Assembly (NCBI GenBank): GCA_949297645.1
Contig: CASFUJ010000003.1
Coordinates: 1-40,925 of the forward strand
Direction: 5' to 3'
DNA: 40,925 nt
From: an uncultured Desulfovibrionaceae bacterium
Lineage (GTDB): Bacteria > Desulfobacterota > Desulfovibrionia > Desulfovibrionales > Desulfovibrionaceae
The position numbers were made by a program, and so were the translations under genes. Below the pieces are notes generated by a model that did not search any database, had not been told where the DNA came from, and saw only the letters and a program-made list of their open reading frames with translations. Below, one piece after another: positions 4,624 through 38,654 of this stretch. Numbering within the stretch: the first letter of the stretch is position 1; each line of letters begins with the position of its first letter.

Positions 4624-4655
4624 CATGCGTTATTTCTATTTGCTGGAGTCCGTTC

Positions 4656-5912
4656 ATGGCACAGATTCAGGCTATCAAGGGCTTTGCCGACCAGTTTCCG
4701 GCGCAGAGCCGCCTTTTTGAGATGATGGAAGCCACCGCGCGCGAGGTCTTTCCGCGCTACGGTTTCGGCGAGCTTCGTACCCCCCTCATGGAGTACACCG
4801 ACCTTTTCTGCCGCGGCATCGGCACGGAAACCGACGTGGTACAGAAGGAAATGTACTGCATTCCCGACAGCAAGGGCCGTTCCATGTCTCTGCGTCCCGA
4901 AGCCACGGCCGGCGTCATGCGCGCCTACATTGAAAGCGGCGTCCATGCCCGCGAAGCCGTGAGCAGGTTTTTCACCATCGGCCCCATGTTCCGGCATGAA
5001 CGTCCCCAGAAGGGCCGCATGCGCCAGTTCCATCAGATAAACTGCGAATGTCTCGGACCGCGGGAACCTGAGGCTGATGCGGAAATCATCTGCATGATGA
5101 TGGAGTTTCTCGGCAAACTCGGACTGAAGAACCTGACGCTTCAGATAAATTCCCTGGGGTGCTCCTCCTGCCGTCCCGTCTATCGCAAGAATCTCCATGA
5201 CTGGCTCGCTTCCCTCGACCAGTCGCAGCTTTGCGAGGACTGTCGCCGCCGCATGGAGACCAATCCTCTGCGCGTTCTGGACTGCAAGGTGCCTGCGTGC
5301 AAGGAACTGACCGCGGACGCTCCCGTGATACTGGAGAACGAGTGCCCCGACTGCCGCGCGCATTTCGACGCCGTACTGCGTCATCTTGATGCGGAAAAGA
5401 TTCCCTACCAGATCAATCATCGCCTGGTGCGCGGACTCGACTACTACACCCGCACCACATGGGAAGTGGTTTCCAATGAAATCGGCTCCCAGGGATCCGT
5501 GGCCGGCGGCGGCCGCTATGACGGTCTTGTGGAGCAGCTCGGCGGGCCTGCCGTGCCCGGCATAGGCTTCGCCTGCGGCATGGAGCGTCTGGCCCTGCTG
5601 CTGGAAGGCCGCGAACTGCCCGAAATTCGTCCCGATTTTTACATGGCCGTGCTTGACGACTCCTGCCGTGACGCGGCCTTTGCTCTCGCGCAGAGCCTGC
5701 GCCGGGAAGGTTTTTCCGGCACCATGGGCTATGAGAGCCGCAGCATGAAGGCCACCATGCGTCAGGCCGGAAAATCCGGCGCGCGCTATACCCTCATCAT
5801 GGGCACGGACGAACTCGCCTCCGGCAGCGTCATCATCAAGAACATGGAATCCGGCGAGCAGCGGGAAGTGCCCTGCGCCGACGTCGCTGCCGGTCTGAAC
5901 GCCGAACAATAA
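4656..5912 (+). CDS. hisS: Histidine--tRNA ligase
   Basis: A 418-residue class II aminoacyl-tRNA synthetase that charges tRNA-His with histidine in the cytoplasm. Visible motifs are LRPEATAG (79-86), motif 2 FRHERPQKGR (112-121), the histidine-binding LVRGLDYYTRTTWE (257-270) and motif 3 GIGFACGMERL (302-312), followed by an anticodon-binding domain. The insertion between motifs 2 and 3 carries four cysteine pairs (C169/C172, C193/C196, C210/C215, C230/C233), which could bind a metal. The start ATG at 4656 follows GGAG at 4644-4647. It is the first gene of a hisS-aspS-def transcript behind the promoter at 4595-4623. Length and motifs are normal. Confidence 0.97.
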   Translation: MAQIQAIKGFADQFPAQSRLFEMMEATAREVFPRYGFGELRTPLMEYTDLFCRGIGTETDVVQKEMYCIPDSKGRSMSLRPEATAGVMRAYIESGVHAREAVSRFFTIGPMFRHERPQKGRMRQFHQINCECLGPREPEADAEIICMMMEFLGKLGLKNLTLQINSLGCSSCRPVYRKNLHDWLASLDQSQLCEDCRRRMETNPLRVLDCKVPACKELTADAPVILENECPDCRAHFDAVLRHLDAEKIPYQINHRLVRGLDYYTRTTWEVVSNEIGSQGSVAGGGRYDGLVEQLGGPAVPGIGFACGMERLALLLEGRELPEIRPDFYMAVLDDSCRDAAFALAQSLRREGFSGTMGYESRSMKATMRQAGKSGARYTLIMGTDELASGSVIIKNMESGEQREVPCADVAAGLNAEQ

Positions 5913-5925
5913 AGAAGGAATGGTC

Positions 5926-7785
5926 ATGAGCCAGTTCGAAGAAAATGAGAAGAACGTCGTTGACGTTCAGAAGGAACACGCCCGCTACATCAAGCCGCTG
6001 GGCGACTGGAAGCGCAGCCATCACTGCAACGACCTGACCATTGCCAATGACGGCGAGACCGTATGTCTCATGGGCTGGGTGCAGTACCGCCGCGACCACG
6101 GCGGCCTCATCTTCGTGGATTTGCGCGACCGTGACGGGCTTACGCAGGTGGTGTTCAGCCCCGAGGTGGCCCCCGATGCGCACAGGGACGCGCATATTCT
6201 GCGCAGCGAATACGTCATCGCCATCAAGGGGCGCGTCCGTCCCCGTCCCGAAGGCATGACCAACCCCAACCTGCACACCGGCGAAATCGAAGTCGTTGTG
6301 CTGGACTGGAAGCTGCTCAACACCGCCAAGACGCCCCCCTTCCTTGTGGAGGACCGCACCGACTGCTCCGAGTCCGTGCGTCTGCAGTACCGCTATCTCG
6401 ATCTGCGCCGTCCTTCCATGGCGCATAACCTGCGCGTGCGTCACAATATTGTGAAGGCATGCCGCAACTATCTGAACGAACTCGACTTCCTTGAAGTCGA
6501 AACGCCCTATCTCACCAAGTCCACCCCCGAGGGCGCGCGCGACTTCCTCGTGCCCAGCCGCATGGCTCCGGGCGAATTCTATGCGCTGCCGCAGTCTCCC
6601 CAGCAGTTCAAGCAGATGCTCATGATGAGCGGCGTGGACCGCTACTACCAGGTGGCGCGCTGCTTCCGCGACGAGGACCTGCGCGCCGACCGTCAGCCCG
6701 AGTTCACGCAGGTGGACATTGAAATGAGCTTCGTGAACGAAGATCAGGTCATGAGCATGGCAGAAGGGCTCATCGCCCGCGTGTTCAAGGAGGCCCTCGG
6801 CGTGGACATCGCGCTTCCGCTTCCCCGCATGCCCTATGAGGAAGCCATGCGCGATTACGGCTCCGACAAGCCCGATACCCGCTTCGATCTCAAGCTCAAG
6901 GACGTGACGGCCATCGTGCACGGGTCCGCTTTCAAGCTCTTTGCCGGCGCGAAGCTGGTGAAGGCTCTGCGCGTGCCCGGCGGCGCCACCATGACCCGCA
7001 AGGAAATCGACGAACTCACCGATTTCGTGAAGGGCTTCGGCGCTCAGGGCCTCGCCTGGATTAAGATTCACGAAAACGAATGGCAGTCTCCCATCGCCAA
7101 GTTCCTTTCCGATGCGGAAAGGGCCGGACTTACGGAAGCCTGCGGTCTTGAAGTGGGCGACATCGTGTTCTTCCAGGCCGGAGAACCCGGTCTTGTGAAC
7201 AACGCCCTCGGCAGCCTGCGCGTGAAGCTCGGAAACAAGCTCGGCCTCATTCCCGAAAATACCTGGAACCTGCTCTGGGTGACTGATTTTCCGCTCTTCG
7301 AATACAGCGAGGAGGAAAAGCGCTGGGTGGCCTGCCATCATCCCTTCACCGCCGCGCAGGACGAAAGCTACGACATCATGCTTTCCGACCCGGCCCGCGC
7401 CAAGGCCCGCGCCTATGATATGGTGCTCAACGGCAATGAAATCGGCGGCGGTTCCATCCGTATCCACAATCCCGCCGACCAGACCCGCATGTTTGAAGGC
7501 CTCGGCTTTACCGAAGAATCCGCCAAGGCGCAGTTCGGCTACTTCATTCAGGCCCTTGACTACGGTACCCCGCCCCACGGCGGTATCGCCTTCGGTCTGG
7601 ACCGCGTGGCCATGCTGCTCACGGGCGCTTCCTCCATCCGTGACGTCATCGCCTTCCCCAAGAACCAGAAGGCCGCCTGCCTTTTGACCGAAGCTCCGTC
7701 CCCCGTGGACAACAAGCAGTTGCGTGAACTGGGCATTCGACTGCGTGAAAAGGCGGCTCCCGCTCCCAGCGCTACCGCGGAGTAA
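5926..7785 (+). CDS. aspS: Aspartate--tRNA ligase
   Basis: A 619-residue bacterial-type class II synthetase. It has an N-terminal OB-fold anticodon domain (MGWVQYRRDHGGLIFVDLRDR, about residues 48-68), motif 2 RCFRDEDLRADRQPEFTQ, a GAD insertion domain, and motif 3 GIAFGLDRVAML near the end. Relative to E. coli AspRS there is an N-terminal extension of about 25 residues. I cannot tell whether it also charges tRNA-Asn. Two ATGs occur at 5920 and 5926; 5926 is preferred because AAGGA sits about 6 bases before it, whereas it abuts 5920. The gene starts 13 bases after hisS, so the two are co-transcribed. Confidence 0.97.
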   Translation: MSQFEENEKNVVDVQKEHARYIKPLGDWKRSHHCNDLTIANDGETVCLMGWVQYRRDHGGLIFVDLRDRDGLTQVVFSPEVAPDAHRDAHILRSEYVIAIKGRVRPRPEGMTNPNLHTGEIEVVVLDWKLLNTAKTPPFLVEDRTDCSESVRLQYRYLDLRRPSMAHNLRVRHNIVKACRNYLNELDFLEVETPYLTKSTPEGARDFLVPSRMAPGEFYALPQSPQQFKQMLMMSGVDRYYQVARCFRDEDLRADRQPEFTQVDIEMSFVNEDQVMSMAEGLIARVFKEALGVDIALPLPRMPYEEAMRDYGSDKPDTRFDLKLKDVTAIVHGSAFKLFAGAKLVKALRVPGGATMTRKEIDELTDFVKGFGAQGLAWIKIHENEWQSPIAKFLSDAERAGLTEACGLEVGDIVFFQAGEPGLVNNALGSLRVKLGNKLGLIPENTWNLLWVTDFPLFEYSEEEKRWVACHHPFTAAQDESYDIMLSDPARAKARAYDMVLNGNEIGGGSIRIHNPADQTRMFEGLGFTEESAKAQFGYFIQALDYGTPPHGGIAFGLDRVAMLLTGASSIRDVIAFPKNQKAACLLTEAPSPVDNKQLRELGIRLREKAAPAPSATAE

Positions 7786-7788
7786 ATC

Positions 7789-8301
7789 ATGCTTCGTCCC
7801 GTTCTTCAGTATCCCGACCCGCTTCTGGCCAAGGTCAGCGAACCGGTTGCCGAGATAAACGACGAAATACGCGCTCTTGCCAAGGATATGCTCGACACCC
7901 TCACCACCGTGGGCGGCGTGGGCATCGCCGCGCCGCAGATAGGCGTGCTGAAGCGCGTGGTCATCATCGACGTGTCGCAGGAAAAGAACGACCCCGATCT
8001 GCCTCAGGATTTCCGGGTGTTCGTGAATCCCGTGGTCACCGTGCTTGACCCCAAAGGGCATGAGGAAAACGAAGGCTGCCTTTCCGTGCCGGAGCTTCGC
8101 GCCAAGGTGAAGCGTCCCCGCCGCGTGGCTCTCGATGCTACCGACCTTGACGGCAATCCCGTGCACATCGAAGGCGAAGGTTATTACGGCGCCTGCATGC
8201 AGCACGAAACCGACCATCTGGACGGCAAGCTGTTCATCGACCACATCAGCTATCTCAAGCGCTCCCTCTACGACAAGAAGATGAGGAAGGGCAGAAAATA
8301 G
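7789..8301 (+). CDS. def: Peptide deformylase
   Basis: A 170-residue metalloenzyme that removes the formyl group from nascent N-terminal methionine. All three signatures are present: GVGIAAPQIG (43-52), EGCLSVP (95-101, metal ligand C97) and QHETDHLDG (138-146, ligands H139 and H143, catalytic E140). It starts 3 bases after aspS, with its ribosome site inside the aspS end, and closes the hisS operon ahead of a strong terminator. Its functional partner fmt follows, but beyond that terminator. Confidence 0.97.
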   Translation: MLRPVLQYPDPLLAKVSEPVAEINDEIRALAKDMLDTLTTVGGVGIAAPQIGVLKRVVIIDVSQEKNDPDLPQDFRVFVNPVVTVLDPKGHEENEGCLSVPELRAKVKRPRRVALDATDLDGNPVHIEGEGYYGACMQHETDHLDGKLFIDHISYLKRSLYDKKMRKGRK

Positions 8302-8333
8302 CCTGAACGTACCGTCCTTTGATGGACAGGAAG

Positions 8334-8363
8334 AAAAAGCCCGGACCTGCGTCCGGGCTTTTT
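8334..8363 (+). terminator. Rho-independent terminator of hisS-aspS-def
   Basis: A perfect 13-bp stem, AAAAAGCCCGGAC (8334-8346) with its complement at 8351-8363, around a 4-base loop and ending in TTTTT. It begins 33 bases after the def stop. Confidence 0.92.
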
Positions 8364-8547
8364 CATGGTCTTCGCCGCGGCGCGGGAGGAGAGGACGGGA
8401 GTCTGGACGCGGGCAGGGATAGGCCGTACAGTGGGCAGACCGTCTGCCGTCGGGAAGACATGGAACCGGAGCGACGGGAATGAACCTTTTAATGAAGGAC
8501 GAAGGAAGGCGCACAAAGGCGTTTTCCGTTTGTGTCATGGAGCTGTC

Positions 8548-18910: not shown

Positions 18911-19325
18911 GAAGACACCTTTCCCATATGAAGGGACGAAACATTCGAACGGGGAGGCGCGTCGTGTTCCGGGACGGACGCCTGCCTTCGATTCAGGCCG
19001 TGAAAATATTGCCTCTGATCAGCGGCGAAGGGAGGCATGCGTGCCGGAACTGATTCCCTGTTTTTGCCGGGAACTCCGGTCCTGCCCGGAACGTGCCGTC
19101 GCCTTCATGCGCACGGCGCAATGGCCGTGCCCCGGAAGCTTCTGAAGGAACGCGCCATGCGAGCTTTCCGACAGGACGCGTACGGGGCATGCTGAATAAA
19201 GAGGGGGAGGCTCTGCCTCCCCCCCCCATTGCTTCACCGGAGCGGCCGCGCTCCGAAGGCTGCGGAACAAAGGCGTGTTCCGTTTTCATGCGACGTCATT
19301 TCAGACGCGCACGTTGCCGCTGTGC
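18911..19325. other. Intergenic region pgi-histidine kinase
   Basis: A 415-base region. It contains the pgi terminator hairpin (19203-19223) and must hold the kinase promoter near 18911-19000. No gene, convincing promoter pair or other structure is supported. Confidence 0.45.
19203..19223 (-). terminator. Terminator of the aminotransferase-pgi operon
   Basis: GGGGGAGGC (19203-19211) pairs perfectly with GCCTCCCCC (19215-19223) around a TCT loop. On the minus strand it is followed by CTCTTTATT, a partial U-tract. It lies about 100 bases past the pgi stop, and a C9 run covers one arm. Confidence 0.7.
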
Positions 19326-23651: not shown

Positions 23652-25310
23652 TTAATATCCCGCGGCGAGGCCGTCGCCCCGGGGATCGGTCGCGCCCTGA
23701 AGCACGCCGTTTTCATGGATGAGAATGGCCCCGGCATGGCCCATGGTATCGGTAAAGTCTTCCACGACCTTCACGGGATGACCGCGTCCGGCAAGCTCCT
23801 CAACCACGGATACGGGAATACGGCCCTCAAGTTTCACGTCGTTGGAGGACGCGCCCCAGGTGCGTCCGTAGAGCCAGCGGGGGGCGGTAACGGCTTCCTG
23901 CGGCGTCATGCAAAAATCCACCACGCGCGTCACGATGGCGGCCTGCGTCTGCGGCTGTCCTTCGCCGCCCATGGTGCCGTACACGAGGAAGGGCCTGCCG
24001 TTTTTGAGAAGCATGGCCGGATTCAGGGTGTGCATGGTACGCTTGCCGGGCTCAAGACGGTTCACATGCTCAGGGTCGAGGGAGAAAAAGCTGCCCCGGT
24101 TCTGGAGCAGTACGCCCGTGCCTTCCGCCACGATGCCGGAGCCGAAATCGTGGTAGATGCTCTGGATGAGGGAGACCGCGTTGCCCCTGTCGTCCACCAC
24201 GCCTAGCCAGACGGTATCGCCCTTGGGGTCGAGGGGCGTTCCAGAGCATGCCGCCCTGTCCATGCGGATGCGTGCGGCCTGCTCTTGGCCGTGTTCTTCG
24301 GAGAGAAGTCTGTCCAGCGGAATGGAGACGAAGGCCGGGTCGGAGAGGCAGGCGTCGCGGTCGGCAAAGGCTTCCTTTGTGGCTTCGATGACGGCATGAT
24401 AGTAGTCCGCGCTGCCCTCGCCCATGTCTTTTATGTTGAACTTGTTGAGAATATTGAGAATCTCAAGGGATGCCATACCCTGCGTGTTGGGCGGCAGGTT
24501 GCAGGCCTCAAGCTCCCGGTAAGGGACGCGCAGGGGCGTTACCCAGTCGGCTCTGTGCTTTGCGAAATCTTCTTCCGTGAGCAGGCCGCCGTGGGCTTTC
24601 ATGTCCGCCGCAATCTTTTTTGCGATGCTGCCGGTATAGAATTCGGAGGCGCCTTTTTCGGCGAGGAGTCTGAGCGTTGCGGCAAGGTCCGGCTGACGGA
24701 ACAGGTCGCCGCAGGCAAGGGGAGCGCCGTTTTTCATGAATACGCGGGCGAATTCCGGAAATCTCTGCAGGTCGCGGAACTCCTTGTCCGAGGTATCGGC
24801 GTTGACGGCGCTCCAGCGCGCAAGGGAGGTACTTACGGGGAAACCCTTTTCCGCATAGGCGATGGCCGAGGTGAAAAGCTCCTTCCACGGCAGGGAGCCG
24901 TGCAGGGACGAGCGGCTGTATGCATAAGCCTCGCCCCAGCCGGAGACCGCGCCGGGCACGGTATTGGCCGCAGGATAGCCGCGGGAGGGAATGTTTTTCA
25001 GGCCTTTTTCGCGGTAGTATTCGATGGTGGCCTTTTTCCCCGCGCGGCCGCTGGCGTTGAGGCCGCGAAGTTCACCCGTTCCGGCATTGTAGATGAGCCA
25101 GAAGTTGTCGCCGCCGGGCGTGCACATCTGAGGATAGACAACAGCCAGCGTGACGGCGGTGGCGATGGCGGCGTCCACGGCGTTGCCGCCGCGTCGCAGA
25201 ACGTCGAGTCCGGCCTGCGTGGCCAGATGGTTGGGAGAGGTGACCATGCCCTGCGTGGCCAGAGGGTTGACGCTCTGGGACGGGGTGGCACAGTAGGAAG
25301 GCGTTTCCAT
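23652..25310 (-). CDS. ggt: Gamma-glutamyltransferase (YwrD-like), enzyme frame
   Basis: An Ntn-hydrolase that transfers or hydrolyses gamma-glutamyl groups such as that of glutathione and self-cleaves at a catalytic Thr. From the internal ATG at 25310 it is 552 residues. GMVTSPNHLAT (21-31) and RRGGNAVDAAIAT (39-51) open the large subunit. T366 in GDTVWLGVVD is the likely processing Thr, followed by GNAVSLIQSIYHDFGSG, MHTLNPAM and GTMGGEGQPQTQ. The frame stays open upstream to about 25370 without family similarity. The natural ATG with a ribosome site and signal peptide is at 25399 in another frame; the two frames are separated by a C8 tract (25328-25335). GGAG lies 8 bases before the 25310 ATG, so a cytosolic form may be made even when the signal is out of frame. 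Confidence 0.88.
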   Translation of the reverse strand: METPSYCATPSQSVNPLATQGMVTSPNHLATQAGLDVLRRGGNAVDAAIATAVTLAVVYPQMCTPGGDNFWLIYNAGTGELRGLNASGRAGKKATIEYYREKGLKNIPSRGYPAANTVPGAVSGWGEAYAYSRSSLHGSLPWKELFTSAIAYAEKGFPVSTSLARWSAVNADTSDKEFRDLQRFPEFARVFMKNGAPLACGDLFRQPDLAATLRLLAEKGASEFYTGSIAKKIAADMKAHGGLLTEEDFAKHRADWVTPLRVPYRELEACNLPPNTQGMASLEILNILNKFNIKDMGEGSADYYHAVIEATKEAFADRDACLSDPAFVSIPLDRLLSEEHGQEQAARIRMDRAACSGTPLDPKGDTVWLGVVDDRGNAVSLIQSIYHDFGSGIVAEGTGVLLQNRGSFFSLDPEHVNRLEPGKRTMHTLNPAMLLKNGRPFLVYGTMGGEGQPQTQAAIVTRVVDFCMTPQEAVTAPRWLYGRTWGASSNDVKLEGRIPVSVVEELAGRGHPVKVVEDFTDTMGHAGAILIHENGVLQGATDPRGDGLAAGY

Positions 25311-25399
25311 GGCTGCGGCTCCGTTGAGGGGGGGGAGGCGAGCAGGGCGCACAGCGCCGCGGCTCCGCACACTGCCGCCCGTTTGAAGAAAAGATGCAT
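25311..25399 (-). pseudogene. ggt signal-peptide start, out of frame with the enzyme
   Basis: An ATG at 25399 has GGGAG 5 bases upstream and encodes MHLFFKRAAVCGAAALCALL followed by ASPP, a textbook Sec signal peptide. In the sequence as given, the reading then runs into SerThrGluPro in the wrong frame. One extra C in the C8 tract (C9), or two fewer (C6), would join it exactly to the enzyme frame, giving ASPPLNGAAA just before METPSY with a good AAA cleavage site. The frame break is therefore confined to the homopolymer. Confidence 0.8.
25328..25335 (-). repeat. C8 homopolymer tract at the ggt signal-peptide junction
   Basis: Eight Gs on the plus strand, read as C8 by ggt. Poly-C/poly-G tracts of this length are classic sites of slipped-strand mispairing. 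Here the tract length decides whether the signal peptide is fused to the enzyme. Confidence 0.85.
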
Positions 25400-25588
25400 G
25401 CGTGCTCCCAGAGTAGAGTGTTATGGGATTTTGTCCATTCCCGTTCGGCGCATGATGCTCTGCATGTTTTGTGCCGGAGCATGTTCTTGAGTTTTGACAA
25501 CAGGTTGAATAACAATGTTTTTTTGAAGAACCGCGGCATGGATTTTTTTTGTTTCAACCGGCGTTGCAGAACACGACCGGGCGAAACG

Positions 25589-25751: not shown

Positions 25752-25779
25752 AAAAAAGCCCGGAGCATGGTCTCCGGGC
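25752..25779 (-). terminator. Rho-independent terminator of topA
   Basis: On the minus strand GCCCGGAG and CTCCGGGC form a perfect 8-bp stem (25772-25779 with 25758-25765) around a 6-base loop, followed by six Ts (25757-25752). It lies 16 bases past the topA stop. Confidence 0.93.
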
Positions 25780-29464: not shown

Positions 29465-29519
29465 GACAAGGTATCCCCCGCGTTTAAAAAACACGGGAGG
29501 CTCTGGAGGTCGTACTGTT

Positions 29520-29942
29520 ATGGCTGAAGAAAAATGTATTTTCTGTCTCATCGCCGGCGGAGACATCCCCTGCGCGAAGGTATATGAGGACGAAGAAGTT
29601 CTTGCATTCCTTGACCTTTCTCCCGCCCGTCCCGGTCACACGCTGGTCATTCCCAAGGCGCATTACAAGGATATGCTGGAAGTTCCGGTGTCCCTTGCGC
29701 CTGCGGTGTTTTCCGCGCTGAAGAAGGTGGGAGCGGCCGTTGTGAAGGCTACCGGAGCGAGCGGATTCAATATTATGCAGAATAACGGTCTGTCTGCCGG
29801 ACAGACCATGTTTCATATACACTGGCATATCATCCCCCGCGAAGAAGGGGACGGCCTCGGCGCCTGGGAGCAGGGGAAGTATCCCGACGCAGCGGCCATG
29901 CAGGAGATGGCTGCCAGGGTGGCCTCGTATCTGGAAAAGTAA
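29520..29942 (+). CDS. HIT-family (histidine triad) hydrolase
   Basis: A 140-residue protein of the Hint/HinT branch, which hydrolyses nucleoside phosphoramidates and aminoacyl-adenylates. The triad H99-x-H101-x-H103 (HIHWHIIP) is complete. The N-terminal CIFC (6-9) suggests zinc binding, as in many bacterial members. The start ATG at 29520 follows GGAGG by about 10 bases and fits family length; an upstream in-frame start at 29463 adds unrelated residues. It is co-oriented with the HU-like gene 31 bases downstream. Confidence 0.93.
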   Translation: MAEEKCIFCLIAGGDIPCAKVYEDEEVLAFLDLSPARPGHTLVIPKAHYKDMLEVPVSLAPAVFSALKKVGAAVVKATGASGFNIMQNNGLSAGQTMFHIHWHIIPREEGDGLGAWEQGKYPDAAAMQEMAARVASYLEK

Positions 29943-29973
29943 TCCGTCTCAGGAAAGAGTGGCAGGAGGAAAG

Positions 29974-30279
29974 ATGAATAAGGCTCTTACCAAGGCAGAC
30001 ATTGTGGAAGCGGTGTACAATGACAAGAATCTTGGGCGTAACCGTGCAGAAGTAAAGAATATCGTTGAAAATTTGCTGCTTCTCATGAAGCAGGCCATTA
30101 AAAAGGACGATGCGCTTCTCATCAGCGGTTTCGGCAAGTTCGAAGCCTATGACAAGAATGCCCGCAAGGGGCGCAATCCCCAGACCGACGAGTCCATCAC
30201 CCTGCCTCCGCGCAAGGTCGTGGTGTTCCGCCTCTCCCGCAAGTTCCGTATGGAGCTCAACGGCGGCGAAGAAGCCTAG
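29974..30279 (+). CDS. HU/IHF-family DNA-binding protein
   Basis: A 101-residue nucleoid protein. LLISGFGKFEAYDKNARKGRNPQT is the family signature covering the beta-arm, and RKVVVFRLSRKFRMELN the C-terminal segment. It is somewhat longer than HU (90) and closer to IHF-alpha length, but nothing decides between HU and IHF. ATG 29974 has GGAGGA about 5 bases upstream. It probably shares a transcript with the HIT gene and ends at the very strong hairpin at 30293-30337. Confidence 0.93.
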   Translation: MNKALTKADIVEAVYNDKNLGRNRAEVKNIVENLLLLMKQAIKKDDALLISGFGKFEAYDKNARKGRNPQTDESITLPPRKVVVFRLSRKFRMELNGGEEA

Positions 30280-30292
30280 ACAAGCAGGTTTT

Positions 30293-30337
30293 GCAGACAA
30301 AGAAAAAGGGCCCATGAGGCCCTTTTTCTTTGTCTGC
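30293..30337. terminator. 20-bp perfect-stem terminator after the HU-like gene
   Basis: Arms 30293-30312 and 30318-30337 are perfectly complementary over 20 bases with a 5-base loop (CATGA). The centre is GGGCC/GGCCC flanked by AAAAA/TTTTT and CTTTGTCT. It starts 13 bases past the stop and is unusually long for a terminator. Confidence 0.93.
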
Positions 30338-30474
30338 CTGTGTTCCGGAAGGGGGGAGGTATGCCGCCCGTCTTCTGTACTCCCCCTTTTTTTTGCGTTA
30401 TAGAGGGGCGTGTCCGCCGGTTTTTTGCCGCGTCGGCAAATCCTGGCCCTGCCGCCAGACTGTGAGAGGATAGC

Positions 30475-31425
30475 ATGTCAGTTCCCGTTCTCGACGCCGC
30501 CGCATGGTCGGCAAAGCTTCTGGAGCTGCCGCGCCCGGGCGCGGCGAATGTCACGGCCTTCTACGAGCATCGCATGGGAGCCATCTGCAGGGATGCGAGA
30601 TTTCTTCTGGTCCCGCTGGATGACCACATGGTGCACAGGGGGGACGCCATTTTCGAAAGTCTTTCCTTCATGGACGGGCGCATCGTGCAGCTTGACGCCC
30701 ATCTGGAGCGCATGAAGCATTCCGCCTCCGTGCTGTCGCTGGAGCCGCCATGCCCGTGGGAGGAACTGCGCGCCGTCGCGATTGAGGTGGCGAGGGCCGG
30801 GGGCTCCCGCTGGGGCGGACTCAAGGTGCTGCTCGGCCGCGGCTGCGGCGGTCTCGGCGTGGACCCCGGGGAATGCAGGGAAAGCAGTCTGTACATGGTG
30901 GCCACGAAGGGACATCCGCTGCCTGAAGCCTTCTGGCAGAAGGGGCTTACCGCGGCCAGAAGCGATATTCCCGCAAAACAGCCCTGGCTTGCGCAGATCA
31001 AGTCCACCAACTATCTTGCCAATGCGCTCATGGCCAGAGAGGCCCGCGAGAAAGGGGTGAACGTCACTTTTTCCTTCGACGAGCAGGGGTTCCTCGCCGA
31101 AGCGGCCATCGCCAACGTGGCCATGGTGGACAGGGCCGGGCGCATGCTCATGCCCGAGTTCCGTCACGCGCTTCCGGGTACCACGTCCATCCGGGCCATG
31201 GAGCTGGCAAAAGCCTTCATGCCCGTAGTTCTCACTGATATCACAGAAGAAATACTGGAACAGGCTTCCGAGATTCTGGTACTTGGTACTACATGCGAGT
31301 GCGTGGCGGTCACGCACTACAACGGCAAGCCTGTAGGCGACGGCCGTCCCGGTCCCATGGCGGACAGGCTGCGCCATCTGCTGCATGACGCTCTTGTGAC
31401 CGGAGGCGTGCCGTTCCTCGAATGA
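30475..31425 (+). CDS. Class IV PLP-dependent aminotransferase/lyase
   Basis: A 316-residue fold-type IV PLP enzyme (family of branched-chain aminotransferase, D-amino-acid aminotransferase and 4-amino-4-deoxychorismate lyase). It has DDHMVHRGDAIFES (49-62), the PLP lysine K176 in IKSTNYLANAL, EAAIANV (209-215) and LPGTTSIR (233-240). Substrate specificity within the family cannot be told; it lacks an obvious ilvE or pabC neighbour. The start ATG at 30475 has GAGAGGA about 5 bases before it. A small secreted protein gene follows 18 bases later, so the two are co-transcribed. Confidence 0.88.
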   Translation: MSVPVLDAAAWSAKLLELPRPGAANVTAFYEHRMGAICRDARFLLVPLDDHMVHRGDAIFESLSFMDGRIVQLDAHLERMKHSASVLSLEPPCPWEELRAVAIEVARAGGSRWGGLKVLLGRGCGGLGVDPGECRESSLYMVATKGHPLPEAFWQKGLTAARSDIPAKQPWLAQIKSTNYLANALMAREAREKGVNVTFSFDEQGFLAEAAIANVAMVDRAGRMLMPEFRHALPGTTSIRAMELAKAFMPVVLTDITEEILEQASEILVLGTTCECVAVTHYNGKPVGDGRPGPMADRLRHLLHDALVTGGVPFLE

Positions 31426-32266: not shown

Positions 32267-34720
32267 TCAGAGCATGTTTACCGGATCGAGGTCCAGGGAA
32301 ATCCTGAGTTCATGCGGCAGGGCGCCCACGTCGCGCAGGGCCAGCGCATAGGCCTGACGCACATGCTGCCAGGTGTCGGCCTTGATGAGACACTGGAAGC
32401 GGGCGCGGCCCTGAATGCGGGCCAGAGGCGCGGGAGCCGGGCCGAGCACGGAGAGTCCGAGGGAACGGCCGTGGGCTCTCAGGGAGGCGGCAAAGACGTT
32501 GACGCGACCCTGTCCGTCCTTCCAGTCCCAGGGATAGGAGAGACGGATGAGCGCGAGCTTGACGAAGGGCGGATATCGGCGCTGCCGTCTCAGGGCTATC
32601 TCGTGTTCGTAAAAGCCCTCGTAGTCGCCTGTTTCCACGAATTTCCAGCAGTAGTGATGAATGTCTCTGGTCTGGATGAGCACTTTTCCCGGCTTTTCTC
32701 CGCGTCCGGCGCGGCCTGAGGACTGCACCAGAAGCTGGAAGGTGCGCTCCGCCGAGCGGTAATCGGGCATGTTCAGGCCCATGTCGCCGTCGGCCACCAC
32801 GGCGAGGGTGACGTTGGGGAAATGGTGGCCTTTGGAGAGCATCTGCGTGCCCACCAGCACCTGCGCCTCCTGCCGGGCAAAGGCGGAGAGTATTTCCTCC
32901 ATACGGCCGGGTCTTGCGGTACTGTCGCGGTCGAGCCGGAGCACGCGGCCGCCGGGAGGCAGGGCTCCGGCGAGTTCTTCGCCCGCAAGGCTTTCCTCCA
33001 GCTTTTCCGTGCCTTCCCCCATGGGCAGAAAGTTCATGCCGCCGCATTTTTCGCAGGGCGAGGGGAAGGGGCGCGTGTGCCCGCAGTAGTGGCAGACGAG
33101 CTGTTCGCGCTTCTTATGGTAGGTCAGAGAGATGTCGCAGCTGGGGCATTTGGCCACGGCGCCGCAGTCGAGGCAGTACATGAGCGGCGCGTAGCCGCGG
33201 CGGTTGAGCAGCACCACGGCCTGTTCGCCGCGCTGAACGGTTTCCCGCAGGGCCTCCACGGCGCGGGGGGACAGCAGGCGGGAAGCGGGCTGCTCCTTGA
33301 TGTCCACAAGCTCTATGGCGGGCAGCGTGCCGCCTCCGGCGCGCTGCGTCAGCTTTGCCAGCGGAAAGGCGCCTTCCCGGGCGGCATGGAAGGTCTTGAT
33401 GTCCGGCGTGGCCGAGCCCAGAATGAGCAGGGCGTTGTGCCGCCGGGCCCGTTCCCACGCCACTTCCTTGGCCTGATAGGGCAGGCGGTCCTCCTGCTTG
33501 AAGGAGCCGTCGTGCTCTTCGTCCAGTACGATGGCGCCGAGCGGCGGCATGGGCAGAAACAGGGCCGAGCGCGTGCCGATGACAAGGCACGGCTCTCTGC
33601 GTGCGGCAAGGCGGCGGAAGGTGCGCTCCCTCTGCTGCTGGCTCTGGTAGCCGTGGTAGAAGAAAACGGGCGTACCGGGGAAACGCTGTTCGGCGTCCCT
33701 GCGCAGTTTGAGCGCGATGGCCACTTCCGGGGCGAGGATGAGGGCGGAACGGCCCCGGAGAAGGCATGCGTGGGCCAGTTCCAGATAGACGGCGGTTTTG
33801 CCGCTTCCGGTAATGCCGAAAAGAAGGTGCGCAAACGGCCGTTTTTCGCCCTGCATGAGCGCGTCCATCTCCCGGCAGTAACCGTCGAGCGCCGTCTGCT
33901 GTTCCGGCGTCAGGGTGAAGGGCGCTTCCGGCGGAGGCAGCAGCGCCTCGCCCGGTTCGGCTTCCTCTTCCCCGGTTTCAGCCGGACGCAGTTCCACGAG
34001 CTTGTTGCGTACCAGCCCGGTCAGAGCGTTCATGCTGTCGGGCAGAGCGTCCCGCAGCGCTTTGCGGGACACCGTGCCGTGCTGCAGCAGCCAGTCCAGC
34101 ACTTCGCGCTGTTTGACGGCATGAGGGCGCACCGGCCACGGCGGGTCGCAGGTAAGGGAGCACAGTTCTCCCGAGGCCGCGTCTTCGGCCAGCATGAGAA
34201 GTTCCGCCCGGCCGCGCACGAAGTCTTCCGCCAGCATGCGGCGCTCGTCAGCGGACAGTGTCGGAATGTCGCGCAGGGCGAAAAGTCTCGGCTTGCGGCC
34301 CCTGCCGTCCCTGTCCGGCAGAAACTGGCGCACCCTGATTCGTGCGGTCACGCGCAGGCCCTGAGGCAGAAGGTTGCCCAGAATCCGGCCCGGCGAGGAA
34401 TACTGACGCGCGGCAAGCTGCGCCACGGTGTCCATGTAGTCGCGCGGCAGCAGGGGGAAAAGCTCCAGCGGCCAGGTCAGAGACCGCAGGGTGATGTCCC
34501 CGTGTTTTTTCATGCTGTGCTGCCCGGCCCCCGTGTTCTCGAGGGCCTTTTCATCGTCCTCGGAAAACACCGCCGTGATGACGCCCGCCCGTATGGCGCC
34601 GTTGCCCAGAGGCACGGCCACGCGCAGGCCGCTCTGCCAGGAAAAGCCGGGAAATTCTTCCGGCGTCAGATAGCTCAGCGTGGCGTAGGGAGGGGAACAG
34701 AGGGCGACGTGGCAGATCAT
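32267..34720 (-). CDS. priA: Primosomal replication-restart helicase PriA
   Basis: An 817-residue 3'-5' superfamily 2 helicase that restarts stalled forks and loads the replisome. The N-terminal 3'-end-binding domain begins VALCSPPYATLSYL. The helicase core has Walker A GITGSGKT (302-309) and DEEH (400-403). A zinc domain follows with paired cysteines (CLDCGAVAKCPSC ... CHYCGH ... CEKCGG), then VGTQMLSKGHHFPNV and the arginine-finger SSGRAGRGEKPG. Length is slightly above the E. coli protein (732). The start ATG at 34720 was chosen because similarity begins there, with AGGA about 10 bases upstream; the frame stays open to 35278 by chance. Confidence 0.95.
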   Translation of the reverse strand: MICHVALCSPPYATLSYLTPEEFPGFSWQSGLRVAVPLGNGAIRAGVITAVFSEDDEKALENTGAGQHSMKKHGDITLRSLTWPLELFPLLPRDYMDTVAQLAARQYSSPGRILGNLLPQGLRVTARIRVRQFLPDRDGRGRKPRLFALRDIPTLSADERRMLAEDFVRGRAELLMLAEDAASGELCSLTCDPPWPVRPHAVKQREVLDWLLQHGTVSRKALRDALPDSMNALTGLVRNKLVELRPAETGEEEAEPGEALLPPPEAPFTLTPEQQTALDGYCREMDALMQGEKRPFAHLLFGITGSGKTAVYLELAHACLLRGRSALILAPEVAIALKLRRDAEQRFPGTPVFFYHGYQSQQQRERTFRRLAARREPCLVIGTRSALFLPMPPLGAIVLDEEHDGSFKQEDRLPYQAKEVAWERARRHNALLILGSATPDIKTFHAAREGAFPLAKLTQRAGGGTLPAIELVDIKEQPASRLLSPRAVEALRETVQRGEQAVVLLNRRGYAPLMYCLDCGAVAKCPSCDISLTYHKKREQLVCHYCGHTRPFPSPCEKCGGMNFLPMGEGTEKLEESLAGEELAGALPPGGRVLRLDRDSTARPGRMEEILSAFARQEAQVLVGTQMLSKGHHFPNVTLAVVADGDMGLNMPDYRSAERTFQLLVQSSGRAGRGEKPGKVLIQTRDIHHYCWKFVETGDYEGFYEHEIALRRQRRYPPFVKLALIRLSYPWDWKDGQGRVNVFAASLRAHGRSLGLSVLGPAPAPLARIQGRARFQCLIKADTWQHVRQAYALALRDVGALPHELRISLDLDPVNML

Positions 34721-34872
34721 GGCGTAGTTGTCCTGTCGAAGCCGGGAAGTCGGGCCTGTTTTCCGGAACCTTCCGGGAAGAACATGTTCCGGCATGAGGC
34801 CGCCTTTGGCCTGCGTTTTTGCGGCGGACCCTTGGTGTCCGGAAGGAGCGGACGAGTCGTTCCCGGGGGGCG

Positions 34873-35223
34873 CTAGCCCTTGAACACGAAGAAGGCTCCG
34901 GCCACGATGAGGGCGAAGCCGATGGCATGGTTCCACGTCAGGCTTTCGCCCAGATAGAGCGTGGAGAAGATGCCGAAGATGGTGAGGGAGATGACTTCCT
35001 GTATGGTCTTGAGCTCTGCGGCGGAGAAGTAGCCGTACCCTACGCGGTTGGCGGGCACCTGAAGGCAGTACTCGAAGAAGGCTATGCCCCAGCTGAGGAG
35101 GATGGCGCCCACGAAGGTGAGGGAGTGGTGGCGCAGATGGCCGTACCATGCGTAGGTCATGAAAATGTTGGAGCCGATGAGCAGGACGACGGTGATGAGG
35201 GGAATGGGAAGATGAAGCGTCAT
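34873..35223 (-). CDS. DUF486/DMT-family small membrane protein
   Basis: A 116-residue protein with four hydrophobic helices. It begins with LPIPLITVVLLIGSNIFMTYAWYGHL and continues with SWGIAFFEYCLQVPANRVGY and FSAAELKTIQEVISLTIFGIFS, all characteristic of DUF486. This family belongs to the drug/metabolite transporter superfamily but has no established function. ATG 35223 has a poor Shine-Dalgarno. It sits between the lysC terminator and priA on the same strand. Confidence 0.9.
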   Translation of the reverse strand: MTLHLPIPLITVVLLIGSNIFMTYAWYGHLRHHSLTFVGAILLSWGIAFFEYCLQVPANRVGYGYFSAAELKTIQEVISLTIFGIFSTLYLGESLTWNHAIGFALIVAGAFFVFKG

Positions 35224-35260
35224 GGCGGGCTCTTTTGCGCGCCCTTTCGGCGCGGGGTCG

Positions 35261-35288
35261 AAAAAGAAAGGGGAGCATGCTCCCCTTT
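35261..35288 (-). terminator. Rho-independent terminator of lysC
   Basis: A perfect 22-bp palindrome at 35267-35288 (AAAGGGGAGC and its complement) is followed on the minus strand by CTTTTTC (35266-35260). It lies 33 bases past the lysC stop and 38 bases before the next gene. Confidence 0.88.
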
Positions 35289-35321: not shown

Positions 35322-35789
35322 CTACAGGTCGAATTCCTTGTGCAGCACGTTCACCGCAAGTTCCAGATCGGCTTCATCCACCAGGCAGGAGATCTTCACT
35401 TCCGAGGTGCTGATCATGATGAGGTTGATGCCGGCCTTGTACAGGGCGTCGAAGGCACGGCTGGCCGCGCCGCTGTGATTGCGCATGCCCACGCCCACCA
35501 CGGAGACCTTGGCCATGTTGGAGGAGTGTTCGATGCTGCTGCAGATGGGGGAGGCTTTTTCCAGCACTTCCAGCGTGCGTTTCAGATCCTTGCGGGATAC
35601 GGTGAAGGCCATGTCGGTCACACCGTCGCGGCTGGCGGTCTGAATGATCATGTCCACCACGATGCCCGCCTTGCCCAGCGGACTGAAGATGCTGGCCGCG
35701 GAGCCCGGGCGGTCCTGCACGTCGCGGAGCGTGACTCTTGCCTGATCCTTGTCAAAAGCGATGCCCGAAACGAGCACGGACTCCATCAT
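35322..35789 (-). CDS. Possible internal in-frame beta subunit of aspartate kinase
   Basis: Within lysC, AAGGAGG (35801 to 35795) lies 5 bases before two consecutive in-frame ATGs (35789, codons 247-248, MMESVLVSGI). Translation from here gives a 155-residue polypeptide consisting only of the two ACT domains. Internal starts producing a separate regulatory subunit are established for aspartokinases of Bacillus and Corynebacterium. The Shine-Dalgarno here is among the best in the window, although it also encodes ordinary residues (TKED), so chance cannot be excluded. Confidence 0.55.
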   Translation of the reverse strand: MMESVLVSGIAFDKDQARVTLRDVQDRPGSAASIFSPLGKAGIVVDMIIQTASRDGVTDMAFTVSRKDLKRTLEVLEKASPICSSIEHSSNMAKVSVVGVGMRNHSGAASRAFDALYKAGINLIMISTSEVKISCLVDEADLELAVNVLHKEFDL

Positions 35790-36527
35790 ACTGTCCTCCT
35801 TGGTGACCAGCGTGCCCGGGTCGTTCGAGAAGGTGGAACGTACCCGGACGGGAACATTATATTTTTCGGCGATTTCTACGGAGCGGATTTGCAGAACCTT
35901 GGCGCCCATGGAGGCCATTTCCAGCATCTCGTCGTAGCTGATGCGCTCCATCTTGTGCGCGTCCTTGCACATGCGCGGGTCGGTGGTATAGACGCCGTCC
36001 ACGTCGGTATAGATATCGCAGATGGTGTCGTTGCCGAGGGCGGCGGCCACGGCGACGGCGGAGGTGTCGGAGCCTCCGCGGCCCAGCGTGGTGAGACGCA
36101 TGTCCGGCGTGCGGCCCTGGAAACCGGCCATGACCACCACGTCGTAGGTCTGGAAGGCTTCCCTGATGGTATCGGCGCTGATGGTGTCGATACGGGCACT
36201 GCCGAAGGCGTCGTCGGTAATGATGGGCAGCTGGAAGCCCAGGAAGGAGCGGGCCTTCACGCCCGAGTCACGCAGGAGCATGGAAAAAAGCGCCACGGAT
36301 TCCTGCTCGCCGGTGGTGAGCAGAACGTCGAGTTCCGCAGGGTCGGGTTCGTCCGACCACTGATAGGCCCTTTCCAGCAGGCTGTTGGTCTGGCCGTAAC
36401 GGGCGGAGAGCACCACCACGACCTTGTTGCCTTCCTCAAGGGCGGCGAGCACCTTGCCGCGCACCTTTTTCATGCACTCCAGGTCGGCGACGGAGGACCC
36501 TCCGAATTTCTGCACAAGAATACGCAT
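35322..36527 (-). CDS. lysC: Aspartate kinase
   Basis: A 401-residue kinase catalysing ATP-dependent phosphorylation of aspartate, the first step toward lysine, threonine and methionine. The catalytic domain has KFGGSS (7-12), LTTGEQES (about 70-77) and TTLGRGGSDTSAV (about 145-157). Two ACT domains for allosteric control occupy about residues 265-401. The single-domain length suits the lysine/threonine-sensitive alpha2-beta2 class, and a strong internal start at codon 247 supports that. ATG 36527 has AGGA about 8 bases upstream. It lies 32 bases after tsaE and ends the acpS-nnr-tsaE-lysC group. Confidence 0.95.
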   Translation of the reverse strand: MRILVQKFGGSSVADLECMKKVRGKVLAALEEGNKVVVVLSARYGQTNSLLERAYQWSDEPDPAELDVLLTTGEQESVALFSMLLRDSGVKARSFLGFQLPIITDDAFGSARIDTISADTIREAFQTYDVVVMAGFQGRTPDMRLTTLGRGGSDTSAVAVAAALGNDTICDIYTDVDGVYTTDPRMCKDAHKMERISYDEMLEMASMGAKVLQIRSVEIAEKYNVPVRVRSTFSNDPGTLVTKEDSMMESVLVSGIAFDKDQARVTLRDVQDRPGSAASIFSPLGKAGIVVDMIIQTASRDGVTDMAFTVSRKDLKRTLEVLEKASPICSSIEHSSNMAKVSVVGVGMRNHSGAASRAFDALYKAGINLIMISTSEVKISCLVDEADLELAVNVLHKEFDL

Positions 36528-36559: not shown

Positions 36560-37105
36560 TTAAGCCTCATCAGCAGGCAAAAAACGCAACAGGAGCCCGG
36601 GCTCCATGCTGCGAAGCAGCGCCTGCGCAGTTTCACCGCAGGCGTCAATGGTTGCCAGCCGGAAAGCTTTGCATGATTTGTCAGCGTTGTCCAGATGTTT
36701 TGCCGACGCTTCTCCTGCAGTCCGGAGCGAGACGTCGAGTCTTTCCTGCGCATAACGTTCCCGGGCGAGATATTGCGGCCATTCCAGTACGAGGAACGGG
36801 TCGCCCTCCTCCAGCATTTCTTCCATCTCCTCGGGCAGAGAGGCCCCTTCCGACAGGCGGTACAGATCCGCGTGGAGCACTTCCGGGCGCGTGGGGTACA
36901 CGTTGCAGAGCGTAAAGCTCGGGCTGGCTACTTCGGCGTTCTCCCCGCCGGGCAGTGCGGCGACGAAACCGCGCGTCAGCGTGGTCTTTCCTCCGCCGAG
37001 TTCGGCGAACAGGTACAGGGTACGCACGGACGAGGCGCTCATGGCCTGTGCCAGCATGCGTCCGAGTTCCATGGTGTCGTCCGGGTCTTTCAAGAGAAAC
37101 TGCAT
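36560..37105 (-). CDS. tsaE: tRNA t6A biosynthesis ATPase TsaE
   Basis: A 181-residue P-loop protein needed with TsaB and TsaD to make N6-threonylcarbamoyl-adenosine at tRNA position 37. It has Walker A ELGGGKTT (35-42; the more usual form is DLGAGKT), SPSFTLCNVY (61-70), HADLYRL (78-84) and EW (108-109). The C-terminal 30-40 residues extend beyond the usual family end. GGAGG lies 5 bases before ATG 37105. The start overlaps the ancestral end of nnr by 16 bases. With nnr now frameshifted, ribosomes in the nnr frame stop about 215 bases earlier, so tsaE must rely on its own ribosome site. Confidence 0.92.
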   Translation of the reverse strand: MQFLLKDPDDTMELGRMLAQAMSASSVRTLYLFAELGGGKTTLTRGFVAALPGGENAEVASPSFTLCNVYPTRPEVLHADLYRLSEGASLPEEMEEMLEEGDPFLVLEWPQYLARERYAQERLDVSLRTAGEASAKHLDNADKSCKAFRLATIDACGETAQALLRSMEPGLLLRFLPADEA

Positions 37106-37395
37106 GTATCCTCCGTGCAGGGGGCGCCTGCAAGATGCATCACAAGGGGAAGGGCGTCGGCAATGTCCTGCGGACCGTTGCCGCGCAGGGGAAAGGTCTC
37201 GGCAAGGCGCATGCCTGCGAGGGCGTGGAGCCATACGCCGAGGGTGGCGGCAAGACCGGCCCCGTATCCTCGAGCCAGCAGCGCGCCGACAAGTCCTGCC
37301 AATACGTCGCCGGAACCGGCTACGGCCAGCTGCGGCACCTGCCAGGGAGAAACGACGGCGGGTTCTTCAGGGACGGAAATAAGCGTTCCCTGGCC
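37090..37395 (-). pseudogene. Detached C-terminal end of the Nnr dehydratase domain
   Basis: In the frame ending at 37090 the translation GTLISVPEEP ... VAGSGDVLAGLVGALLARG is the nucleotide/metal-binding end of NAD(P)HX dehydratase (family motif G-G-x-G-D-V-L-A-G). It has no start of its own and is offset in frame from the rest of nnr, which stops at 37320. The remnant ends inside tsaE. Confidence 0.85.
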
Positions 37396-38654
37396 GCTTC
37401 TCCGGGATGTGGGGTGAGCACGTCGCAGGGGCGCAGCCGGGGAAGAAGTTCCGGCCTTCCGGCCAGAGCAAAGAGAGCGTCGGCGTCCAGCACCATGGGA
37501 GGACGCCTTTCCGCGGAAAGAAGGGCTGCGAGGGCGTCGGATGCACCTTTGTTCCTGCCGAGTCCCGGACCGAAGACCAGCGCGCCGTATCCGGTTGCGG
37601 CTTTTGCCAGAGAAAGGGCGTCGGCCTCCTGCCATTCTCCGGCGTCGTTTCCTTCCAGGGAAAGCATGGTGAGCGCGGGCTGGCAGAGGCGCGCGACCTC
37701 AAGCACCGGTTTCGGCCCGGCCACGGTCACAAGCCCGGCTCCGGCACGAAGCGCCGCCCATGCGGAAAGCGTCGGCGCGCCCGTGTAGGCGGCGCAGCCT
37801 CCCGCCACGAGCACGCGTCCGGCGTCGCCTTTGTGGGCCGGTCCGTCCGTACAGGGAATGCGCTTTTGCCTGAAACACTCCGGAAGATGCGCGGAAACGC
37901 CGTGGGGAACGACGTAGGGCGCTCCGGCGTCTTCTCTCTGCCCCGGCACGAGCCAGGTGCGGAAGGAGGGCGGGTTCGTCTGCGCGACGGCGCGGGGCAT
38001 ACCTATGGGCCGCACATGAAGTTCCCCTGTGAAGAGGGCGGCCTGCGGCAGCAGAAGGCCCGGCTTGGCGGCCTGAAAGGTGACGGTGACATGGGCGCGT
38101 ACGGCCGAGGGCGAGGGAAGGCCCGTGCGGGCGTCGAGCCCGGAAGGAACGTCTATGGAAAAGAGCAGGCGCGGGGAAAGGGCGTTTATTTTCTCTACGA
38201 GGCGGGCTTCCTTTTCCCGCAAAGTTCCGCGGAAGCCCGTGCCGAGAAGTCCGTCCACCACGATGTCCGGCGAGGCGGGAACCGGCGCTTTTCCCTGTTG
38301 CCATGCTTCGGAAGAAAAGACGGGCACGCCGAGAGTCATGGCCACATGGAGCCAGTGGGAGGCCGCGCCGCGGTACTGTTCGGGCGCGCGGGTGCAGACG
38401 AGCACGGGTCCGGCCCCCGCATCCAGAAGATGACGCGCCATGCAGAAGGCGTCTCCGCCGTTGTTGCCGGAACCGGCCACGAGAAGAACGGAAGCGCCCG
38501 GCAGGCAGAGGCCTCTTGCCCGGGCCCTGTCGCGCAGGCAGTCCATGGCGGCGCGCGCGGCGCTCTCCATAAGGGTTTCCTCGGATATGCCCGCGGCGAC
38601 GGCTCCGGCATCCCAGAGCGCCATTTCCTCCGGTGTGGGAACGGGAACGAACAT
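37320..38654 (-). CDS. nnr: Bifunctional NAD(P)H-hydrate repair enzyme Nnr, dehydratase half broken
   Basis: 444 codons are readable. Residues 1 to about 215 form an intact NAD(P)HX epimerase (VAGSGNNGGDAFCMARHLL, DIVVDGLLGTGFRG, SIDVPSGLDARTG). Residues from about 225 form the dehydratase (KGDAGRVLVAGG ... GAGLVTV, FGPGLGRNKG, VLDADALFAL, VLTPHPGEAAR at about 412-422). After TPHPGEAAR the frame changes and about 30 residues normally present before KGAGT are missing; the reading ends in 22 unrelated residues at 37320. The end of the domain survives in another frame (37090-37395). This points to a deletion of about 90-100 bases, not a multiple of three. Epimerase activity may persist; dehydratase activity should be lost. 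AAGGAG lies 7 bases before ATG 38654. Confidence 0.87.
   Translation of the reverse strand: MFVPVPTPEEMALWDAGAVAAGISEETLMESAARAAMDCLRDRARARGLCLPGASVLLVAGSGNNGGDAFCMARHLLDAGAGPVLVCTRAPEQYRGAASHWLHVAMTLGVPVFSSEAWQQGKAPVPASPDIVVDGLLGTGFRGTLREKEARLVEKINALSPRLLFSIDVPSGLDARTGLPSPSAVRAHVTVTFQAAKPGLLLPQAALFTGELHVRPIGMPRAVAQTNPPSFRTWLVPGQREDAGAPYVVPHGVSAHLPECFRQKRIPCTDGPAHKGDAGRVLVAGGCAAYTGAPTLSAWAALRAGAGLVTVAGPKPVLEVARLCQPALTMLSLEGNDAGEWQEADALSLAKAATGYGALVFGPGLGRNKGASDALAALLSAERRPPMVLDADALFALAGRPELLPRLRPCDVLTPHPGEAARERLFPSLKNPPSFLPGRCRSWP

Follow-up and report, generated by a model that had tools for sequence, protein, structure and literature searches.

Whether a run of eight cytosines lying between a signal peptide and the enzyme behind it marks a switch, a sequencing error or a lasting change in the location of that enzyme is the question raised by a hydrolase gene found on the minus strand of the analysed DNA, a stretch of 40,925 nucleotides referred to hereafter as the window. 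It corresponds to contig 3 in the metagenome-assembled genome of a gut Mailhella (372 contigs, 88.6% complete), and its closest matches are genomes of uncultured Mailhella (Desulfovibrionaceae), also assembled from metagenomes, with 83-85% protein identity. Synteny is largely kept with the homologous regions of three of them, G017 (a complete genome in one contig), G014 and G013. The neighbours of the hydrolase gene are topA on one side and, on the other, a small ORF together with an SfsA-type gene. As a hairpin followed by a T run, a putative terminator read directly on the minus strand (25752-25779), separates it from topA, the gene probably has its own transcription.

Read on the minus strand, a Shine-Dalgarno-like GGGAG (25405-25409), for which the sister species show (A)GGAG at the same place, precedes the ATG at 25399. 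The first 21 codons from this ATG (25337-25399) encode MHLFFKRAAVCGAAALCALLA, a Sec-type signal peptide with a KR n-region and a hydrophobic core whose mean hydropathy is 2.43 over 12 residues. The C8 tract (25328-25335), preceded by a T (25336), is the point where the signal-peptide and enzyme frames part: with eight cytosines, the ATG at 25399 opens a 133-codon non-enzyme ORF (24998-25399) that reads junk past the tract, and the enzyme frame is open from upstream of the tract down to its stop at 23652. The two frames are joined by one tract length in three, C8 not being among those. The same C8 was returned once by a search of the window's own genome, and a frameshift scan that took the complete genome G017 as reference flagged the break independently. 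Because six sister species carry in frame either the same signal peptide (G011, G012, G016 and G017, e.g. MNLFFKRAAVFGAAALCAVLCAPRNGAAA-MESPSY) or an equivalent one (G002 and G015), we consider it a displaced signal peptide and not a chance reading. The anatomy proposed in the preliminary description (an ATG at 25399 behind GGGAG, a Sec signal peptide, and a C8 tract at which the enzyme frame is left) was thus exact, both by direct reading and in view of the sister species. Since the signal peptide is still pristine, the C8 lesion should be recent, reversible or an error.

Export varies among the relatives. A signal peptide of this kind is in frame in six of the nine closest Mailhella orthologs, with C4 to C6 at the tract site, and the three others are left without a usable one: the window species through the C8 frameshift, G014 through another frameshift and G013 through erosion. 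The hydrophobic core of G014, TLFQKAGVLGVAALCAALSVPRDGAA-MEKTSY, reads in the enzyme frame, but the sole upstream ATG does not and is overlapped by a TGA of the enzyme frame; this break (L007/L035, at the ortholog start) is start-proximal and outside any long homopolymer, the core of the signal peptide being otherwise well preserved. As for G013, the signal peptide is absent in every frame. In a tree of 67 orthologs, the nine close species form one clade comprising the six exported and the three non-exported forms, and the window species groups with G013 with moderate support (91/84). The signal peptide is also absent from the more distant Mailhella G004, G005, G006 and G018 and from a separate cytosolic branch (about 60% identity), and it is present in many Desulfovibrio-like species, Oxalobacter, Pandoraea and others, export state having been set by a hydropathy rule and not by SignalP, so that the exported flags on two rows of the cytosolic branch (L216 and L221) are probably false. 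This distribution across branches indicates that the location of the enzyme changes repeatedly within the family, and the G014 frameshift and G013 erosion point to recurrent export loss rather than tract switching.

The enzyme itself is intact. It is a GGT-family hydrolase (Ntn, MEROPS T3-type) of 552 amino acids (23652-25310, minus strand), which scores 451 bits against TIGR00066 (gamma-glutamyltransferase; curated cut-off of 357.85) and 518 bits against Pfam G_glu_transpept. The codon of the presumed autocatalytic nucleophile, the Thr of TVWLG and first residue of the small subunit, was located at 24213-24215 (minus strand) by alignment with chain B of 5hft. The dN/dS ratio (NG86) is 0.15-0.20 between the window species and its sisters, compared to 0.11-0.16 for pairs of exported sisters, and lower still (0.07) for pairs of signal-less species (G004-G006). 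Counted against an outgroup, amino-acid changes on the window lineage were in no large excess (19 vs. 13, 19 vs. 15 and 22 vs. 18). The hydrolase is under purifying selection, and the whole reading frame and low dN/dS in both the window and the signal-less species indicate that the enzyme is useful without export in this genus.

A possible source of such a non-exported enzyme is the ATG located at the mature N-terminus (25308-25310, minus strand), 8 nt downstream of an internal GGAG (25319-25322). Inside the ORF of all nine close species, an in-frame start codon occurs at this place (ATG in seven species and GTG in two), 5-8 nt downstream of a GGAG. The signal-peptide Gly concerned is encoded by GGA in the nine species, whereas in the rest of the gene not one of the 42 invariant Gly columns uses GGA throughout (the most being 4 of 9), and none of the 196 invariant fourfold columns has a third-position A in every species. 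This conservation is nevertheless less striking than the raw count, because GGA also predominates at the other signal-peptide Gly, among the species in which that residue could be aligned, and because the first 40 codons of genes contain about twice the usual share of A-ending codons (12% vs. 6%). As a control, 28 syntenic genes (9,119 aligned codons) of four species were screened for a conserved GGAG followed 5-9 nt later by an in-frame start codon, a pattern that proved to be limited to one true gene start and to the interior of the aspartokinase gene. The latter (35322-36527, minus strand) has an internal GGAG and ATG (TKEDIMMESV) conserved in four Mailhella species; a second, in-phase internal start is known in the aspartokinases of other bacteria.

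Further comparisons concern species in which this start stands alone. The signal-less G004, G005 and G006 start at GGAG-6-ATGGAA, directly comparable to the GGAG-8-ATGGAA of the window, and G018 starts at GGAG-8-ATG; in these four species, the GGAG-ATG is the only start, at a comparable place. In another Desulfovibrionaceae clade (G070, G071, G114 and G115, near-identical and counted as one case), the signal peptide is followed by GGGAG-7-ATGACACC, which matches the start of cytosolic relatives. Folding of a 90-nt RNA piece revealed no stable structure over the GGAG or the ATG. The cytosolic form that had been proposed from the ATG at 25310 is thus supported, at the sequence level, by a ribosome-binding motif and start codon conserved in nine of nine species and serving as sole start in signal-less ones. 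Alternatively, the Met at the mature N-terminus could simply be inherited, and ribosomes reading the junk ORF through 25310 might impede initiation at this ATG.

Taken together, these data favour, with a probability of roughly 0.5, an export-defective allele whose intact hydrolase would be made in the cytosol from the conserved internal start. The C8 allele would cut the Sec signal peptide off from the GGT-family hydrolase, translation would then begin at the ATG at 25310, which has its own GGAG and occupies what used to be the signal-peptidase site, and the product would remain cytoplasmic. Besides the presumed use of this start in the window species, the exported species would also use theirs, so that the sisters may make both periplasmic and cytosolic forms, and the upstream form would have been lost repeatedly in Mailhella because the internal start preserves the enzyme. 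More tentatively, and as a possibility somewhat on the doubtful side, the Mailhella gene might normally serve two compartments, the first ATG giving the exported form and the Shine-Dalgarno motif and start codon at the signal-peptidase site the cytosolic one; individual lineages would then have given up export through independent lesions (the C8 tract in the window, another frameshift in G014 and erosion in G013), with a functional enzyme kept at every stage.

The rival that survives best, although it seems unlikely, is a consensus or assembly error, or a strain mixture, at the homopolymer, the true gene being in frame and its product exported as in the sisters. The assembly is indeed fragmented, the signal peptide shows no decay, and 17 G were observed at the end of a contig (G000 contig C120, bases 1-17), probably a two-colour sequencing artefact, which suggests that short-read artefacts of this kind are present. 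However, when 47 of the approximately 60 C/G tracts of at least 8 nt were examined, using a window-trained codon-bias model and, for the informative ones, inspection by eye, the six clear coding C8/G8 tracts of the same assembly (L144, L149, L160, L161, L162 and plsX in L179) were all found to keep frame, and none of the 47 was a tract of at least 9 nt between two clear same-strand coding flanks. As the clear coding tracts keep frame and none of those of 9 nt or more has two such flanks, there is no sign of a systematic homopolymer error or of a set of contingency genes. Also, apart from the C8 tract and a 100-bp deletion, the 22-27 genes (about 10,000 amino acids) compared to three sisters show no frame break, and a comparable break exists in a second species, G014, outside any long homopolymer.

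The deletion concerns an nnrD/nnrE-like gene for a bifunctional NAD(P)H-hydrate epimerase/dehydratase (37102-38654, minus strand), in which about 100 bp are missing vs. G017, G014 and G013, leaving it out of frame. Read base by base, the break is real in this assembly, and it reflects either real decay or an assembly fault; it is therefore conceivable that general decay or assembly faults lie behind the C8 lesion as well. The other frameshifts returned by the scan (around 4641-8433, 29481-31386 and 32270-35278) were rejected as probable antisense shadow ORFs or gene-boundary artefacts in this high-G+C DNA.

Reversible phase variation, in which slipped-strand mispairing at the C tract would switch the enzyme between periplasm and cytosol as the preliminary description had suggested, appears quite unlikely. 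The tract is a coding repeat whose length sets the frame, it is lengthened in the window species only, and the signal peptide has remained intact despite being out of frame; eight residues correspond to the lower edge of the lengths that vary in known phase-variable genes, which was counted in favour of this explanation. On the other hand, no second tract length was found in the window's own genome or in the viral contigs scanned with a variable gap, no other frame-setting tract was identified among the 47 C/G tracts, those of at least 9 nt lying outside clear coding sequence, and export was lost in sister species through other lesions. Neither the tract nor the switching is kept in the related species: in the comparison of relatives, which had been proposed as a check, six sisters have C4 to C6 with the signal peptide in frame. 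With these coding tracts elsewhere in frame as well, the proposed phase variation is left unsupported. The presence of mutL also argues against it; a full-length mutS was not found in this assembly, but the contig ends before the region equivalent to G017:C1:425188-427863, and mutS is also at a contig end in several other assemblies. In itself, a tract of this kind is nothing exceptional: at the genome level, 95 C8 matches (overlapping) were counted, which is within the range of the genus, and the window holds five C7 matches, fewer than the mean of 13.7 obtained in dinucleotide shuffles. Of note, a C9 tract (19219-19227) was seen within an inverted repeat rich in G+C (GGGGGAGGCTCTGCCTCCCCC), away from clear coding sequence.

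Early pseudogenisation, according to which export was essential, the enzyme is now useless and decay has just begun, is less plausible again: the broken nnrD of the same window and a genome smaller than some of the sister genomes would fit it, but the enzyme is fully open and conserved with a low dN/dS, and it has stayed intact across long divergence in at least three lineages lacking the signal peptide. Least probable of all is programmed slippage at the C run, whether ribosomal or transcriptional, by which the exported form would still be made from the C8 allele, since despite the intact signal peptide and a homopolymeric C-CCC-CCC site where a -1 slip would join it to the enzyme frame, no stimulatory structure was found downstream (z = 0.4) and the tract is not conserved, the short tracts of the sisters being in frame.

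Concerning the function of the enzyme, the closest solved relatives are 5hft, which we take to be the Klebsiella HpxW, and 2nlz, a Bacillus cephalosporin acylase, both ahead of the E. coli GGT. Identity to 5hft reaches 58% for the small subunit and 42% for the large one (B and A chains, respectively). The residue aligned with Arg114 of the E. coli GGT, which binds the gamma-glutamyl carboxylate, is a Ser, i.e. the Arg expected of a gamma-glutamyltransferase is missing. With 5hft and 2nlz as closest relatives and Ser at this position, the role in gamma-glutamyl or glutathione scavenging that had been attributed to the gene is doubtful. From its sequence, the enzyme resembles HpxW and the cephalosporin acylase more than a classical GGT, its substrate being uncertain. 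HpxW is cited as an oxamate amidohydrolase in PMC5270733. An oxalate pathway was considered as context and found unsupported, as no oxalyl-CoA decarboxylase of the genus scored above the curated cut-off.

Provided that the internal start is real, the locus would illustrate, by comparison of species, how a bacterial enzyme can move stepwise from one compartment to another: with a second start built in, the signal peptide can be broken and the enzyme still be kept. A homopolymer frameshift that resembles phase variation can then be a relocation event, and annotated out-of-frame signal peptides could be screened for a Shine-Dalgarno motif and start codon at the cleavage site.

As regards known systems, the enzyme shares with HpxW (Klebsiella, 5hft) and the Bacillus cephalosporin acylase (2nlz) the TVW nucleophile motif, GxMGGxxQPQ and RTWG, so that both its closest solved relatives and its active-site motifs are those expected of an HpxW-type oxamate amidohydrolase. 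It differs from HpxW in that the genus has no oxalyl-CoA decarboxylase over the cut-off and in that the related Mailhella enzymes are often exported. With the classical periplasmic gamma-glutamyltranspeptidase (E. coli GGT, 2e0w), it has in common the family, a TIGR00066 score over the cut-off and the Ntn/Thr architecture, although similarity is lower (253 bits), Ser occupies the Arg114 position and GTMGG replaces GSPGG. Like the phase-variable homopolymer genes of Neisseria, Campylobacter and Helicobacter, the locus has an out-of-frame poly-C/G tract within the 5' end of a gene encoding an exported protein; unlike them, no length variation was found, and its tract, of only eight residues, is unique to the window species, the other coding tracts being in frame. 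The literature search found no direct bacterial precedent for compartment switching by internal starts. The likeness extends to alternative in-frame starts, such as those of aspartokinase alpha/beta and of the eukaryotic dual-targeted invertase and fumarase, through a conserved internal Shine-Dalgarno motif and start codon within a longer ORF. Contrary to these systems, the upstream form has been lost in three of the nine close species, and the start in the window coincides with the signal-peptide cleavage site, so that the predicted isoforms would differ in compartment.
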